Assembly (NCBI GenBank): GCA_030630935.1
Contig: DAOVMD010000239.1
Coordinates: forward strand, 1-5,388
DNA: 5,388 nt
Reading direction: 5' to 3'
Origin: Candidatus Mcinerneyibacteriota bacterium
Lineage (GTDB): Bacteria; AUK180; JAQVHJ01
Below, piece by piece: positions 329 to 5,388 of this stretch (positions are counted from its first letter, which is position 1; each line of letters starts with the position of its first letter). The translations under genes were made by a program, and so were the position numbers. A model generated the notes under the pieces. It did no database searches and had not been told where the DNA came from. It saw nothing but the letters and a program-made list of their open reading frames with translations.

Positions 329-1324
329 TTATTTTATATGTAATTCAATAATATCCTCATCTCTTAATTCAAAATCGTGCTGGACTTTCTGACCAGGATA
401 CACATCCTCCCCCCAAATTCTTGCATATTTTAATTTTACTGAGAAATCTTTATGAATAGATTTGGCAAAATCCTTTAGCTTTGCACCTCCATGTAATATT
501 ACCGGATCCGCTTTATCTGCATCCTTCCCTGGTTCTTTTGTGTAAACTCTAATCACTTCAAGGTATTCAAAGACCTTTCTTTTAAATTCATTTGAATTCC
601 ATTCTTTATCAGCAATTGTTTTAAATATTTCAAATTTCCCATTGATTTCCAGGTCGAGTAACTCCATATTCTCATTATCCAGTACTTTATCAGATTTTGA
701 AGCTATAACAAAAGTCCTAATTTGTTTAATTGCAGGGTCATCAAAGTCTTCTGTAATTTCTTTTTGTGGAATAATTTTATGATTACCAAGGTTCTCAATT
801 AATGAAGAATATTGTTCCAGCAACTCGTCATCAGAAAGGTCAACTACAAAAACTAAAACATCAGCATTTCTTATTATTCCAAAAACCCAGCCTTCTGTAT
901 AGTCTTCTGAAATTGGTGGTAGGTCAACAAGCTGAATCTGTACATTCTCAAAAAACATCATCCCCCAAATCGGTTTTGAAGTTGAGTATGGATAATCACC
1001 AATAACAGGATGGGCGTTTGTAACAGTTGCAAGGAGACTTGATTTACCTGAGTTGGGAGCACCAACTAAAATAACCTGACCAGCGCCTTCTTTTGGAACA
1101 AAATAAAAATCAAAACGTTTTGCACCCTTTTTCCCTGAACCCTCAGAATACTTGGCGATACGGCGCTTAATATCTGCTTGCATTTTTTCGGTTCCTTTAT
1201 GTTTGGGAATTGTTGATAACATCTCATGCAATGCATCAAGTTTCTCCTCAGGAGTCCGGGATGCACGATAGCGCTCTTCAGCTCTTTTATATTCTGGACT
1301 TAAATTTGCCGGCATAATACTCAT
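329..1324 (-). CDS. DRG/Obg-like GTPase with C-terminal TGS domain
   Basis: This 331-residue protein belongs to the bacterial/archaeal DRG-like branch of Obg GTPases, cytosolic P-loop proteins usually tied to ribosomes or translation; the exact role of this bacterial branch is not settled. In order, it has a charged helical N-terminus (about 1-65, including IPKHKGTEK), a G domain (about 80-215) and a TGS domain (about 258-331) ending in ELRDEDIIELHIK. The G motifs are G1 GAPNSGKSS (88-96), G2 YPYST (111-115) followed by SKP, G3 DLPP (134-137) and G4 SKSD (209-212). The G4 Asn of the usual NKxD is Ser here, which may change guanine affinity. It is transcribed alone from the promoter at 1351-1379. 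No Shine-Dalgarno precedes the ATG at 1324; the family often begins MPAN, so the ATG at 1315 (residue 4) is an equally good start. Family assignment is confident; the cellular role is not. Confidence 0.93.
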   Translation of the reverse strand: MSIMPANLSPEYKRAEERYRASRTPEEKLDALHEMLSTIPKHKGTEKMQADIKRRIAKYSEGSGKKGAKRFDFYFVPKEGAGQVILVGAPNSGKSSLLATVTNAHPVIGDYPYSTSKPIWGMMFFENVQIQLVDLPPISEDYTEGWVFGIIRNADVLVFVVDLSDDELLEQYSSLIENLGNHKIIPQKEITEDFDDPAIKQIRTFVIASKSDKVLDNENMELLDLEINGKFEIFKTIADKEWNSNEFKRKVFEYLEVIRVYTKEPGKDADKADPVILHGGAKLKDFAKSIHKDFSVKLKYARIWGEDVYPGQKVQHDFELRDEDIIELHIK

Positions 1325-1873: not shown

Positions 1874-2605
1874 TTATAGATATGTAAATTCCTTCACCTG
1901 AAAGTTCAGTTCAAGGTTTAATGGGAAGTATTTAACATTAATAGTTTCAGGATATTTAAATAAGTTACTTGTTGAATAATGACTGAACTTAATTGAGATA
2001 TAATTGGAAGCTTCGGTCTCATTAAAAAATTTAATCTCTTTTAACTCGTCAAAATAGAAACTCATATATTTTGTCAGGATAATAGATTCTTCAGTTCTTT
2101 CAAGTATTTCCGGTGCAAACTGTATCCTAAATGAATTCCCGATCGTTTTTTCTGATTCAAGTTTTTTAGTTAGTTTATCTGCGGGCAAAAATATATCTCT
2201 AATCTCCCCGATTATCAAAGGTAAAATTAATTTTGTATCCGGCATAATATCATTATTTGCAGGCTCTAATTGAATCTCATTATTCTCAAGTTGATACTTA
2301 AGAAGTAGAGTCATACCTTTATATAAGCCAAGAGCTTCATCTCCATTATCTTTTAATAATAAACCAAATTGCATTGTTGCAGACTTAGAGTTTGGTCGGG
2401 TAATTTTTATTTTTCCATTCATTTTTAATTTTGAAAAACTTGATTTCGTTTTTTTTGAAACACGTTCGGTGCACCAGTCTTCATATTTCACAATTACCTT
2501 TTTTTCTTTATTATTATCGTCACTTATACATTTAAATAAAGAAGTGCAGCCTGTGAAATATATTATAAAAACAGGTGAAAGTATTAGTATAAATAGTTTT
2601 CTCAT
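1874..2605 (-). CDS. Envelope lipoprotein, LolB/DUF4292-like
   Basis: The 243-residue product starts MRK, followed by a hydrophobic stretch (4-18) and a lipobox-like YFTGC with the acceptor Cys at 20. Phe at -3 is unusual, but the rest fits signal peptidase II. Residues +2/+3 are Thr-Ser, with no Asp retention signal by the enterobacterial rule. The mature part is mostly predicted beta: MNGKIKI near 62-68, MQFGLLLKDNGDEALGLYKGM near 78-98, and a final strand series around 203-243 with the pattern YPETINVKYFPLNLELNF. This recalls LolA/LolB/DUF4292 half-barrel lipoproteins that bind lipid acyl chains; the match is by pattern only. It is last in the operon, overlapping the Fe-S gene by ATGA, and has the best ribosome site in the operon (AAGGA, 7 bases from the ATG). 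Lipoprotein status is fairly sure; the fold and lipid-carrier role are inferred. Confidence 0.8.
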   Translation of the reverse strand: MRKLFILILSPVFIIYFTGCTSLFKCISDDNNKEKKVIVKYEDWCTERVSKKTKSSFSKLKMNGKIKITRPNSKSATMQFGLLLKDNGDEALGLYKGMTLLLKYQLENNEIQLEPANNDIMPDTKLILPLIIGEIRDIFLPADKLTKKLESEKTIGNSFRIQFAPEILERTEESIILTKYMSFYFDELKEIKFFNETEASNYISIKFSHYSTSNLFKYPETINVKYFPLNLELNFQVKEFTYL

Positions 2606-3486
2606 TTATTTATCCTTTTTGAAAGGTTACATTTTGGTTTAAAATTATTTTGTTTATTAATCAGTTTAAATGCCTGGGGATTAAGAAAATCAAGGAACCC
2701 TCCTAATCCTGTACATTTATATTTAATATTATCAGAAATAATTGCATTCACGGGACAATAGCTTAAATCTTCATCACCTATAAATATTATTTCTATTGTA
2801 TTCAACTCGAACCATGTACTTAACACATAAAAGCAATGTGGACAGCTGGTTATTATTTTTTGAATTTTATTCTGTTTAAAATACTTGAGATTCCGGGTTT
2901 GGATCTTTTCGAAATCATTCAGGTCACCGACCGCTAACTTTAGGTATCCGCAGCAGTCTAAGTTCTTTTCTATATTAAAAACAATCTTATCCTTCTCAAC
3001 TAATGTTAAAAGTGATGTATCAGGAAAGCAGCCAGGGAATAACAAGGTCTTAGACGATTTTTTATAGCTCCCCGAATTAATTGATGCATGATAAAATTTC
3101 AAAAATTCAGTTGTTGGATTCCCATCAAGTATATTATTTAATTCTTTTCTTCTTTTCCCAGTTAGTCTTTTCATATTATCCCTAAAATCGGAGAATTCAA
3201 ATAATAAACTTCGAGTTAATAAAATCAGATTCACAACATTAACCTCCAGCGGGCACTTAACTGAACATTTCAAACATAGGAAACACGTATAAAAACATTT
3301 TAGGATTTCTGAATCACCCTTGATTTTTCCATTTACTAAAGCTCCGGCTAATTGAACCAAACCCCTGGGAGAATATTCTTCTTCCCTTAAGTACATATAC
3401 ATATCACATACACTTTTACACTTACCGCAGCTTACACATTTATCAAATTCCTCTTTAATAACTTTTTTTAAGAATGATTTATTCAT
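2602..3486 (-). CDS. (Fe-S)-binding CCG-domain protein, HdrD/GlcF/LutA-like, short form
   Basis: This 294-residue cytosolic redox protein resembles the electron-transfer subunits of heterodisulfide reductase, glycolate oxidase (GlcF) and glycerol-3-phosphate dehydrogenase (GlpC). Two [4Fe-4S] ferredoxin motifs are visible: C17, C20, C23, C27 and C68, C71, C74, C78 followed by Pro. Next is one cysteine-rich CCG domain: C153 in FPGCFPD, C178-C179-Gly, and C215/C218 in SCPHC. The gap from C153 to CC is 24 residues, shorter than the usual 31-38. A second CCG domain seems decayed: CTGLGGFLDF (258-267) stands where CCGxGGxF is expected, and the closing CxxC is absent. Full family members run to about 400 residues. 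No FAD dehydrogenase or other redox partner is in the window, so substrate and partner are unknown. The start has AAAGGG 8 bases upstream and overlaps the amidase end by 8 bases. Confidence 0.85.
   Translation of the reverse strand: MNKSFLKKVIKEEFDKCVSCGKCKSVCDMYMYLREEEYSPRGLVQLAGALVNGKIKGDSEILKCFYTCFLCLKCSVKCPLEVNVVNLILLTRSLLFEFSDFRDNMKRLTGKRRKELNNILDGNPTTEFLKFYHASINSGSYKKSSKTLLFPGCFPDTSLLTLVEKDKIVFNIEKNLDCCGYLKLAVGDLNDFEKIQTRNLKYFKQNKIQKIITSCPHCFYVLSTWFELNTIEIIFIGDEDLSYCPVNAIISDNIKYKCTGLGGFLDFLNPQAFKLINKQNNFKPKCNLSKRINK
2613..2617 (-). promoter_or_regulatory. Ribosome binding site of the lipoprotein gene
   Basis: AAGGA on the minus strand lies seven bases before the ATG at 2605, inside the end of the Fe-S gene. 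It supports this start and independent initiation in addition to coupling through the ATGA overlap. Confidence 0.7.
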
Positions 3487-3973
3487 CTCTAAAACCCTTT
3501 AAAAATTTGAAAAGGAAATCCCCGGGACAGCTGCCGGGAAGTTTATCTAAATATTCCCGATGCCCTAAAACATCAGTTCTCTCTAATTTATATTCAGCGA
3601 TTAATTCAGTTAACAGGATTGTTAAAGAAACCTTCAATTGATTTGAAACCTTTTCAATATTGAAATCTCCTATTACAGCAACCCCGATATTAGCATCATT
3701 AAAACTCTCGACATGTGCTCCTTGGAAAAACTTTGATCGACCTTCAAATATTTCACCTTTTCCTGAGACCAGATAATGATACCCGATATCACCCCAACCC
3801 CTATCCTGGGTATGAAATTCTGCAAGTGAAATCAATCTTTCCTTAATTGAATATGGATAAAAAGGATTTGAATTTGTATGATGTAAGGTAATTTTTTGAA
3901 CCTGTTTCATCCTTAACATATTCTCTTCGACAGGTAAATAATTTTTCCATGTTTCAGAAGATAGAATTTTCAT
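3479..3973 (-). CDS. N-acetylmuramoyl-L-alanine amidase, PGRP/Amidase_2 type
   Basis: The 164-residue protein is a single zinc amidase domain that cleaves the bond between N-acetylmuramic acid and L-alanine in peptidoglycan or its fragments. Visible hallmarks are LHHT (30-33), giving the first zinc His; GWGDIGYHYLV (59-69), with the catalytic-type Tyr at 65 or 67; QGAHVESFNDANIGVAVIGDF (84-104 region); GHRE with H138; and PGSCPGDF with C149. H31 or H32, H138 and C149 match the His-His-Cys zinc site of T7 lysozyme and PGRPs. The opening ILSSETWKNYLP resembles the 'isRaeW' start of the family, so the domain is complete. There is no signal peptide or membrane segment, so it should act in the cytosol (for example on recycled muropeptides) or be released by lysis. 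It overlaps recJ by ATGA; no good ribosome site is near the start, so translation probably depends on reinitiation after RecJ. Confidence 0.92.
   Translation of the reverse strand: MKILSSETWKNYLPVEENMLRMKQVQKITLHHTNSNPFYPYSIKERLISLAEFHTQDRGWGDIGYHYLVSGKGEIFEGRSKFFQGAHVESFNDANIGVAVIGDFNIEKVSNQLKVSLTILLTELIAEYKLERTDVLGHREYLDKLPGSCPGDFLFKFLKGFRDE
3495..3500 (-). promoter_or_regulatory. Ribosome binding site of the Fe-S protein gene
   Basis: AAAGGG on the minus strand lies eight bases before the ATG at 3486 and within the amidase coding end, supporting this start codon. Confidence 0.6.
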
Positions 3974-5388
3974 AAATCATATTTTAAATCTTCAAGTGTT
4001 AATAAAATCTCACTTCTTTCTTTAAATTCATTTCTTATAACCGAATAAACAATATTATATAACATCGGTTGAATACTTTCAATTATTTCATTAAAATATC
4101 CCATATTCCAACCAATCGCATTGAAATATTTATTTTTCTTCCTTAGCCTGAGTTTTAGATGTTCATTATTTCGACCGTATTTTGCAATATTTAAAATTTC
4201 AACATCTCTTGTTAAAAATTTTGGTCTTGGATTCTCAATCCCGAATGGTCTAAGGTAGTCTAATTCATTCAAGAACTTATTCGTAATTTTATCAAACTCG
4301 ATCTCCATATCAATTTCAAGAACTGATTTGAGCATATCGTCAGTTAATTTATTTGTAATCTCATCCTTTATAGTCTTAATAAATTTATCAAGGGATGCTT
4401 TCTTTAAAGTAAATCCTGCAGCATATTCATGCCCCCCAAATTGAGTTAGATACTTTTCAGCTTTTCTCAAGACATCAATAATATTATAGCCTGTTATACT
4501 TCTTGCAGCACCTGTTATACAATCTTTATCCTCAATAAGAATAAAGGTAGGACGGTAATATTCATTTTTTATCTTCGTATCTACGATACCTGTAACCCCA
4601 TGCTCAATCTCAGAAGATTTTACTATAATAACCTTATCTGTTTCCTGGTTAAAAGTATCTTTTATAGAAGCAAGGACTTTGTTAAGGTTATCTTCTGTTC
4701 GTTCTTTTCTTAACTGATTGAGTTTTAAAAGGGTCTGTGCAATCTTCAGAGTCTCCTTCTTATCAATTGTAAGAAGTAGTTTCAATGCAATATCTCCGGT
4801 CTCAATCCGACCCGCGGCATTTATAATTGGAGCAATTAACCAACCAATTTCATTCTCCGCAATCTCCTTCTTTTTATCAAGATTCAAAAGAGAATATAAT
4901 GTTCTTAACCCGACATTTTTTGTGAAGGCAATCTTGGTTAATCCTAAAGCTGCAAGAATTCTATTCTCGGATGTCAAGGGAACCATATCAGCAATTGTAC
5001 CCAGTGACACAAAATCAAGATACTTGAAAACATCTACCATTGCAGGATAACGCAGTTTACGCAGTTCAACAAAAATCTTATGTAAAACATAAACATCGTT
5101 TTCTGCTCTATGAAACCGTGAAGTTTTAATATTCATAAAATCTGCAACTGCTTCCAGTTTTAGTGAACTTAATCCCGGAAACTGTGACCGTAACAATGGG
5201 ATTGTATCAATTATTTCATAATCAACTTTTTTATTTAAATATTTATTTACATATTTCTCATAAAACCTCCAGTCGAAATTTGCATTATGAGCGACAAAAA
5301 TTGTACCATCCACAAATTTGAATAACTCCTGAATAACTTTCTCTGGTGGTTCACCTTCTTTATCTAATAATTCCTGTGTAATCCCTGT
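3970..5388 (-). CDS. recJ: RecJ ssDNA exonuclease containing a DnaQ-type 3'-5' exonuclease domain (5' end off the window)
   Basis: The frame is open to the right edge, so 472 residues are visible and the true start is outside; the GTG at 5313 is not a real start, because the 25 codons before it read TGITQELLDKEG, a typical DnaQ/PolC exonuclease segment. The DnaQ part shows Exo II HNANFD (5272-5289), an internal DTIPLLRSQFPG, and Exo III HRAEND (5095-5112), the DEDDh type; Exo I lies beyond the edge. About 25 residues later comes RecJ: YLDFVSLGTIADMVPLTSENR, then INAAGRI, the DHHA1 motif GGHEYAAGF (4411-4437) with GAARSI before it, and a C-terminal OB-fold segment (RPFGIENPRP onward). The roughly 350 residues after the junction equal the usual length of that part of RecJ. 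RecJ degrades 5'-ended ssDNA in recombination and mismatch/base-excision repair; DnaQ domains degrade 3' ends. RecJ's N-terminal DHH motifs are not visible: they may lie upstream (insertion) or be lost (replacement). First visible gene of the operon. Confidence 0.9.
   Translation of the reverse strand, partial: TGITQELLDKEGEPPEKVIQELFKFVDGTIFVAHNANFDWRFYEKYVNKYLNKKVDYEIIDTIPLLRSQFPGLSSLKLEAVADFMNIKTSRFHRAENDVYVLHKIFVELRKLRYPAMVDVFKYLDFVSLGTIADMVPLTSENRILAALGLTKIAFTKNVGLRTLYSLLNLDKKKEIAENEIGWLIAPIINAAGRIETGDIALKLLLTIDKKETLKIAQTLLKLNQLRKERTEDNLNKVLASIKDTFNQETDKVIIVKSSEIEHGVTGIVDTKIKNEYYRPTFILIEDKDCITGAARSITGYNIIDVLRKAEKYLTQFGGHEYAAGFTLKKASLDKFIKTIKDEITNKLTDDMLKSVLEIDMEIEFDKITNKFLNELDYLRPFGIENPRPKFLTRDVEILNIAKYGRNNEHLKLRLRKKNKYFNAIGWNMGYFNEIIESIQPMLYNIVYSVIRNEFKERSEILLTLEDLKYDL
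4986..5112 (-). other. Junction between the DnaQ and RecJ domains
   Basis: Exo III ends at 5095, and after a short helix-like linker (VLHKIFVELRKLRYPAMVDVF, in two pieces) the RecJ segment begins at YLDF. The aspartate of GTIAD (4987-4989) corresponds to the last metal ligand of the RecJ DHH site. In ordinary RecJ this point follows the surface helix after the 'GVGVAFKL' motif, so a domain inserted here would not break the DHH core. Confidence 0.65.

Follow-up and report, generated by a model that had tools for sequence, protein, structure and literature searches.

A DnaQ-type exonuclease domain nested inside the DHH domain of a distinct branch of bacterial RecJ proteins

The truncated recJ gene located at the end of the analyzed window belongs to a form of RecJ in which a complete DnaQ domain is nested inside the DHH domain of a complete RecJ, between motif III (DHH) and motif IV (GTIAD). 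Proteins of this architecture, referred to here as insert-RecJs, represent a distinct RecJ branch occurring in several bacterial phyla. Judged from the sequences, the protein of the window's lineage is probably (at a probability of roughly 0.6) a two-polarity single-strand nuclease, combining RecJ (5'–3') with a nested PolC-like DEDDh exonuclease (3'–5'), the products of which possibly enter nucleotide salvage.

The window, i.e., the whole stretch of DNA analyzed, has a length of 5388 bases and corresponds to an entire contig (C431) of the assembly G000, which consists of 471 contigs with a completeness of 80%. The following features were assigned:

3970..5388, minus strand: 5'-truncated insert-RecJ gene, 472 of about 740 codons, with the stop codon at 3970-3972
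5071..5388, minus strand: C-terminal two thirds of the nested DEDDh (DnaQ/RNase_T) domain (Pfam RNase_T, E 2.5e-13)
5272-5274, 5110-5112 and 5095-5097, minus strand: catalytic residues Asp, His and Asp of the nested DEDDh domain
5035..5070, minus strand: junction at which the chain returns from the exonuclease to the RecJ DHH domain, between the RNase_T and TIGR00644 matches and unbroken in G001
4636..5034, minus strand: remainder of the RecJ DHH domain, including motif IV (GTIADMVPL; metal Asp at 4987-4989), and the linker containing INAAGRI (TIGR00644 matched from profile position 198 onwards)
4354..4635, minus strand: DHHA1 domain with GAARS (Arg at 4501-4503) and GGH (His at 4429-4431) (Pfam, E 1.4e-12)
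3988..4314, minus strand: RecJ OB-fold domain (Pfam RecJ_OB, E 5.1e-25)
3479..3973, minus strand: gene for an N-acetylmuramoyl-L-alanine amidase (Amidase_2) downstream of recJ, the end of which it overlaps; also the neighbour in G001
2602..3486, minus strand: downstream 4Fe-4S/CCG protein gene; same neighbour in G001

The first-pass annotation had described a DEDDh exonuclease and RecJ in one frame without a stop between them, and this was borne out by 472 open codons extending as far as the contig end, by the Pfam and TIGR00644 matches, and by all of the motifs it had quoted. Of the profiles it had proposed for a search, RNase_T (profile 57–164 of 164, amino acids 1–106), DHHA1 and RecJ_OB were matched in the window frame and DHH in the complete orthologue described below, whereas the NCBIfam model TIGR00644 (recJ) matched amino acids 119–467 of the window frame (profile 198–545, E 1.9e-89). 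The residues Asp39 (HNANFD), His93 and Asp98 (both in HRAEND) are the last three of the DEDDh set. On the RecJ side, the motif IV Asp134 (GTIADMVPL), INAAGRI and GGHEYAAGF were recognized, the motif IV Asp being the only metal ligand of RecJ motifs I–IV visible in the window. The SxR and GGH motifs of DHHA1 and the OB fold are present, with the Ser of SxR replaced by Ala in both the window and G001. Since the window is a whole contig, the end of which cuts off the 5' end of the gene, the exonuclease D-x-E and RecJ motifs I–III are not part of it, and this missing N-terminal half was not found elsewhere in the G000 assembly. At the opposite contig end, a TGS-domain GTPase of the Obg/DRG type is encoded (329-1324, minus strand), and short imperfect repeats (gagaacagagagcagagaaccgagaacagagaa) were noticed at 1600-1680 within a long intergenic stretch.

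The nearest relative, a member of the same family (G001), possesses the complete gene of 743 codons, whose product is 64% identical to the window protein, junction included; its downstream genes likewise encode an amidase and a 4Fe-4S protein. The domain order in this orthologue is DHH (81–213, profile 1–107 of 125), RNase_T (222–377), the end of DHH with motif IV, DHHA1, and RecJ_OB. Its RNase_T match spans the full profile (2–164, E 1e-36) and the D-E, D, H and D residues of the exonuclease are complete, while the metal ligands of RecJ motifs I–IV (D-x-D-x-D, D, DHH, D) are kept in G001 and in the full-length insert forms. With 551.9 bits over profile positions 2–543, G001 exceeds the TIGR00644 cut-off of 396.9, below which the truncated window frame falls (300 bits over 198–545). 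Alignment to the Staphylococcus aureus RecJ (8y30) placed query residues 2–218 and 396–729 on chain residues 3–218 and 219–547; as the 8y30 chain runs on across the query gap, about 177 residues are therefore inserted at one point. The initial description of a DnaQ domain joined to the second half of a RecJ is thus correct regarding the single polypeptide, but what is nested is a full DnaQ within a full RecJ, and the complete orthologues rule out that DnaQ is fused end-to-end to a RecJ half. A C-family polymerase domain, the hallmark of PolC, was not found in the 743-aa orthologue.

As the contig end cuts the gene and the assembly is fragmented, the join could be suspected to be an assembly or annotation artefact. 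The first-pass annotation had named two such cases, namely an assembly error joining two genes and a DnaQ part amounting to a short remnant. Both are ruled out by the unbroken 743-aa frame of G001 with its full RNase_T domain and by independent assemblies of many families carrying the same frame, leaving next to no probability for this explanation.

Structure prediction, also proposed at the outset, was performed for an orthologue from Elusimicrobia (L077, 736 aa, 28 sequences) using AlphaFold2, resulting in a model with a pLDDT of 90.4 and a pTM of 0.91, which is predicted to hold a RecJ fold together with a PolC-like exonuclease fold. The model superimposes on Deinococcus radiodurans RecJ (drRecJ) with a Z of 52 and an rmsd of 2.4 Å over 526 residues, and its residues 210–379 match the exonucleases of PolC and DinG and the E. 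coli epsilon subunit with Z values of 17–18 (PolC about 18). By sequence, the closest solved exonuclease is also of the PolC type (E 6e-38), and none of the solved chains found by sequence contains both RecJ and a nested exonuclease.

Insert-RecJs were counted at E 1e-90 in 386 genomes sampled across the domain, of which 20 from nine family-level groups were positive; within the phylum of the window, all seven genomes carry the insert form. The search for the same architecture suggested by the first-pass annotation was successful in the window's phylum, Elusimicrobiota, Ozemobacteraceae and Spirochaetota (Treponema/Spirochaetaceae). Matches in a viral collection look like RecJs of ordinary length. 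Among 129 aligned RecJs, the length of the segment between motifs III and IV is bimodal, with 117–195 aa in 50 proteins, 9–27 aa in 79, and none in between. In a tree of 57 sequences calculated with the insert columns left out, a branch supported at 99/90 sets the insert forms apart. In 15 of the 20 genomes, among them G023 (100% complete) and G170 (99%, one contig), no RecJ other than the insert form was found, whereas five genomes of family f2 encode an ordinary RecJ and a strongly diverged insert form. In these f2 genomes (L035-L039), the diverged second RecJ has an intact exonuclease insert and lies next to PNP and an mfd-like frame, the ordinary RecJ being encoded elsewhere. Most insert-RecJ genes pass the TIGR00644 cut-off and would therefore be named simply RecJ.

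Besides the insert, the branch differs from ordinary RecJs in the residues contacting the terminal nucleotide. The drRecJ complex shows Tyr80 stacked against the terminal base and Arg109 holding the 5'-phosphate, and kcat/Km decreased from 17.1 to 1.1 (Y80A) and 1.6 (R109A) upon replacement of these residues (PMC4846377). Position 80, located between the first two Asp of motif I, is aromatic in 78 of 79 ordinary RecJs (Tyr 73, Phe 5, Ser 1) and in 0 of 49 insert forms, which have Arg (34), Lys (8), Ser (6) or Cys (1) instead. The Arg109 loop (P-x-R..EGYG) is shortened and devoid of the Arg in 49/49 insert forms, while the Arg is kept in 79/79 ordinary RecJs. One of the two patterns used for scanning named genomes contains [RK] at position 80 and is biased accordingly, but the genome-search sets and the second pattern, which are free of this bias, agree with the result. 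The pocket of Tyr80/Phe and Arg109 is a feature of ordinary members and not of the TIGR00644 family model, and for the window gene, in which the region lies off the contig, the pocket residues were judged from G001 and the rest of the branch. With both Tyr80 and Arg109 changed, the branch therefore has a remodelled 5'-end pocket. The new motif I Arg/Lys may take over from Arg109, and the loss of Arg109 and Tyr80 could result in weaker or altered work at the 5' end.

The insertion most likely occurred once, in the ancestor of this RecJ branch, the same ancestor presumably having remodelled the pocket by exchanging the motif I Tyr80 for Arg/Lys and losing the Arg109 loop. The exonuclease domain tree, which was distorted by a long, poor row (L279) and retested with the long rows left out, neither positively supported nor rejected a single origin of the exonuclease (p-AU 0.084). 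The DEDDh residues are complete in f1 (DE being seen in G001), f2, f19, f31, f70, f74, f187, and Elusimicrobia (L077 and L078). All treponemes examined have lost them, as have L080, L127, L074 and L075/L076, which corresponds to four active/lost changes on the tree. The insert itself was kept at 117–180 aa despite the lost residues in Spirochaetota, Ozemobacteraceae, Endomicrobiaceae, f117 and f219. In treponemes and related spirochaetes (L079-L105, L121), it appears by sequence as a catalytically dead exonuclease domain of about 155–163 aa. By hhalign, the treponeme insert was recognized as a homologue of the active domain (E 2.6e-6, probability 89%), and it was predicted with confidence in a structure model; in the fold comparison of this model, the insert did not surface by itself among the matches listed, which were filled with RecJ rows. 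The L075 insert matched the active profile at 2e-19, while profile scores did not show homology to the exonuclease for the L080, L127 and L074 inserts, which were assigned by position and size only.

Treponemes, L074, L075, L080 and L127, having lost the catalytic residues, can thus do without an enzymatic role of the insert, and since the domain stays while the residues are gone, it may do more than cut. The main rival reading builds on this retention: the insert would be mainly structural or regulatory, gating or positioning ssDNA at the RecJ site or docking partners and thereby offsetting the lost 5'-end pocket, with nuclease activity being secondary. A structural first role at the RecJ channel would explain why dead copies were retained, and the four changes on the tree, the homology and confident prediction of the treponeme insert, and pocket changes common to active and dead forms are in line with it. 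However, the DEDDh residues are fully conserved in at least eight divergent groups including the family of the window, and a purely structural domain would need none of them; this reading is therefore regarded as rather improbable.

The exonuclease might also, as the sole domain of DnaQ type encoded in a genome, proofread replication in trans. The RecJ insert is indeed the only RNase_T match at E 1e-5 in G001, G004, G005, G006, G023, G170 and G219, but further DnaQ or PolC domains are present in G000, G002, G003, G035, G074, G078 and others, and nothing ties the insert to a polymerase. Moreover, DnaE polymerases can proofread with their PHP domain, and a proofreading role is considered very unlikely.

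Regarding known systems, the insert-RecJs have the DHH, DHHA1 and OB domains, the metal-ligand positions and the fold in common with bacterial RecJ (TIGR00644; D. radiodurans 5F54-5F56, T. thermophilus 1IR6/2ZXO, S. aureus 8Y30), but the solved RecJs contain no nested domain and have the motif I Tyr/Phe and Arg109, both of which the insert forms lack. The PolC exonuclease domain (2P1J, 9QPC), closest by sequence and fold, is likewise a DEDDh domain embedded in another protein, its host being a polymerase and not, as here, an exonuclease of opposite polarity. In S. aureus DinG (8ZEF; PMC12345164), a DnaQ-family exonuclease is also joined to another nucleic-acid enzyme, in this case as an N-terminal DEDDh domain fused end-to-end to a helicase rather than nested. 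Among the relatives of RecJ, which include archaeal homologues and CDC45, the latter resembles the insert-RecJs in having large insertions and no 5'-phosphate pocket residues (PMC4846377), but its insertion between the DHH domain and the C-lobe is not an exonuclease, and CDC45 is catalytically dead. No published description of a RecJ with a nested DnaQ domain was found in a full-text literature search, older subscription papers lying outside it, and an earlier mention is possible.

In E. coli, RecJ, ExoVII, ExoI and ExoX jointly provide ssDNA degradation of both polarities in mismatch repair, as separate proteins and not, as would be the case in insert-RecJ, within one polypeptide. As the catalytic residues of both nucleases are present in the lineage of the window, degradation from both ends is the natural prediction: both sites would be active, coupled in one chain, and would convert ssDNA or oligonucleotides to mononucleotides from either end. 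Being the only RecJ of most of these genomes, the insert form would also cover the repair work of RecJ. ExoVII is present in 12/12 insert genomes tested, so that these genomes do not otherwise lack a means of degrading ssDNA from both ends, and the idea of the insert as a replacement of ExoVII is unsupported.

Analysis of the gene neighbourhood revealed that 31 of 50 insert genes have a DeoA/Pyn, PNP, MTAP or DeoB gene as an immediate neighbour on the same strand, as compared to 0 of 79 ordinary recJ genes (Fisher's p 5e-17, which overstates the case because the loci are related) and 0 of 48 ordinary loci with up to 4 kb of flank. The neighbour families were confirmed for example loci. The phosphorylase linkage recurs in Elusimicrobiota, treponemes and seven further family groups, and in G001, 3 bases separate the end of the PNP frame from the recJ frame. 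Such neighbours are absent in G023/G170 and others, and in the window, the corresponding flank of the gene is lost at the contig end. That operon-like arrangements with thymidine/purine nucleoside phosphorylases and phosphopentomutase occur repeatedly suggests that the products of the proposed two-polarity nuclease would feed the neighbouring phosphorylases and thus nucleoside salvage. Together with the lost 5'-pocket residues, this neighbourhood leaves room for readings other than the simple processing of gaps or ends in repair.

Taken further, the protein would not be a repair RecJ at all, but an enzyme dedicated to DNA catabolism in nucleoside salvage operons, converting oligodeoxynucleotides to dNMPs for the adjacent phosphorylases. 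Apart from the neighbourhood counts, the ordinary RecJ accompanying the insert form in f2 genomes is consistent with this. On the other hand, the insert form is the only RecJ found in 15/20 genomes, and a repair role is hence probably retained; f2 insert genes are followed by a frame reading, by inspection, as the repair gene mfd; and an apt-like salvage gene neighbours 15/79 ordinary and 0/50 insert recJ genes (as defined by a loose motif), suggesting that the neighbourhood may be a loose housekeeping operon. Exclusive dedication to salvage is accordingly judged clearly unlikely. Only tentatively, and with the odds against it, do we propose that the insert-RecJs constitute a separate enzyme class, digesting DNA to nucleotides from both ends, recognizing the 5' end in a changed manner (through Arg/Lys in motif I instead of the Arg109 loop), and specialised for nucleoside salvage operons. 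Their nested exonuclease would be coupled to the RecJ channel and, in several lineages, would have turned into a dead gating domain.

Polarity and 5'-end recognition of RecJ are textbook features set by few residues, and this branch changed those same residues and gained a nuclease of opposite polarity within that catalytic domain; in the phyla concerned, no other RecJ is often present. The insert-RecJs lend themselves to testing how polarity is set, whether a single polypeptide can perform the repair work of RecJ and a 3' exonuclease, and whether DNA degradation is linked to nucleoside salvage. Since treponemes carry the dead-insert form, their relevance extends beyond uncultured bacteria.

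Some additional features of the loci were noticed. Operon-like orders with deoA/pyn, PNP, MTAP and deoB were seen in L077, L127, L071, L072, L007, L067, L079, L088 and others. In G074, the gene directly downstream of the insert-RecJ (L070:3542-5200, plus strand) reads as another DHH-family phosphoesterase. In L007, L068 and L069, recJ is directly followed by a gene for a conserved protein of 93–107 aa (MKGVIDRIEEGIAVIEFDDGG...), which is presumably DUF3006-like and precedes MTAP in L007 and L068.
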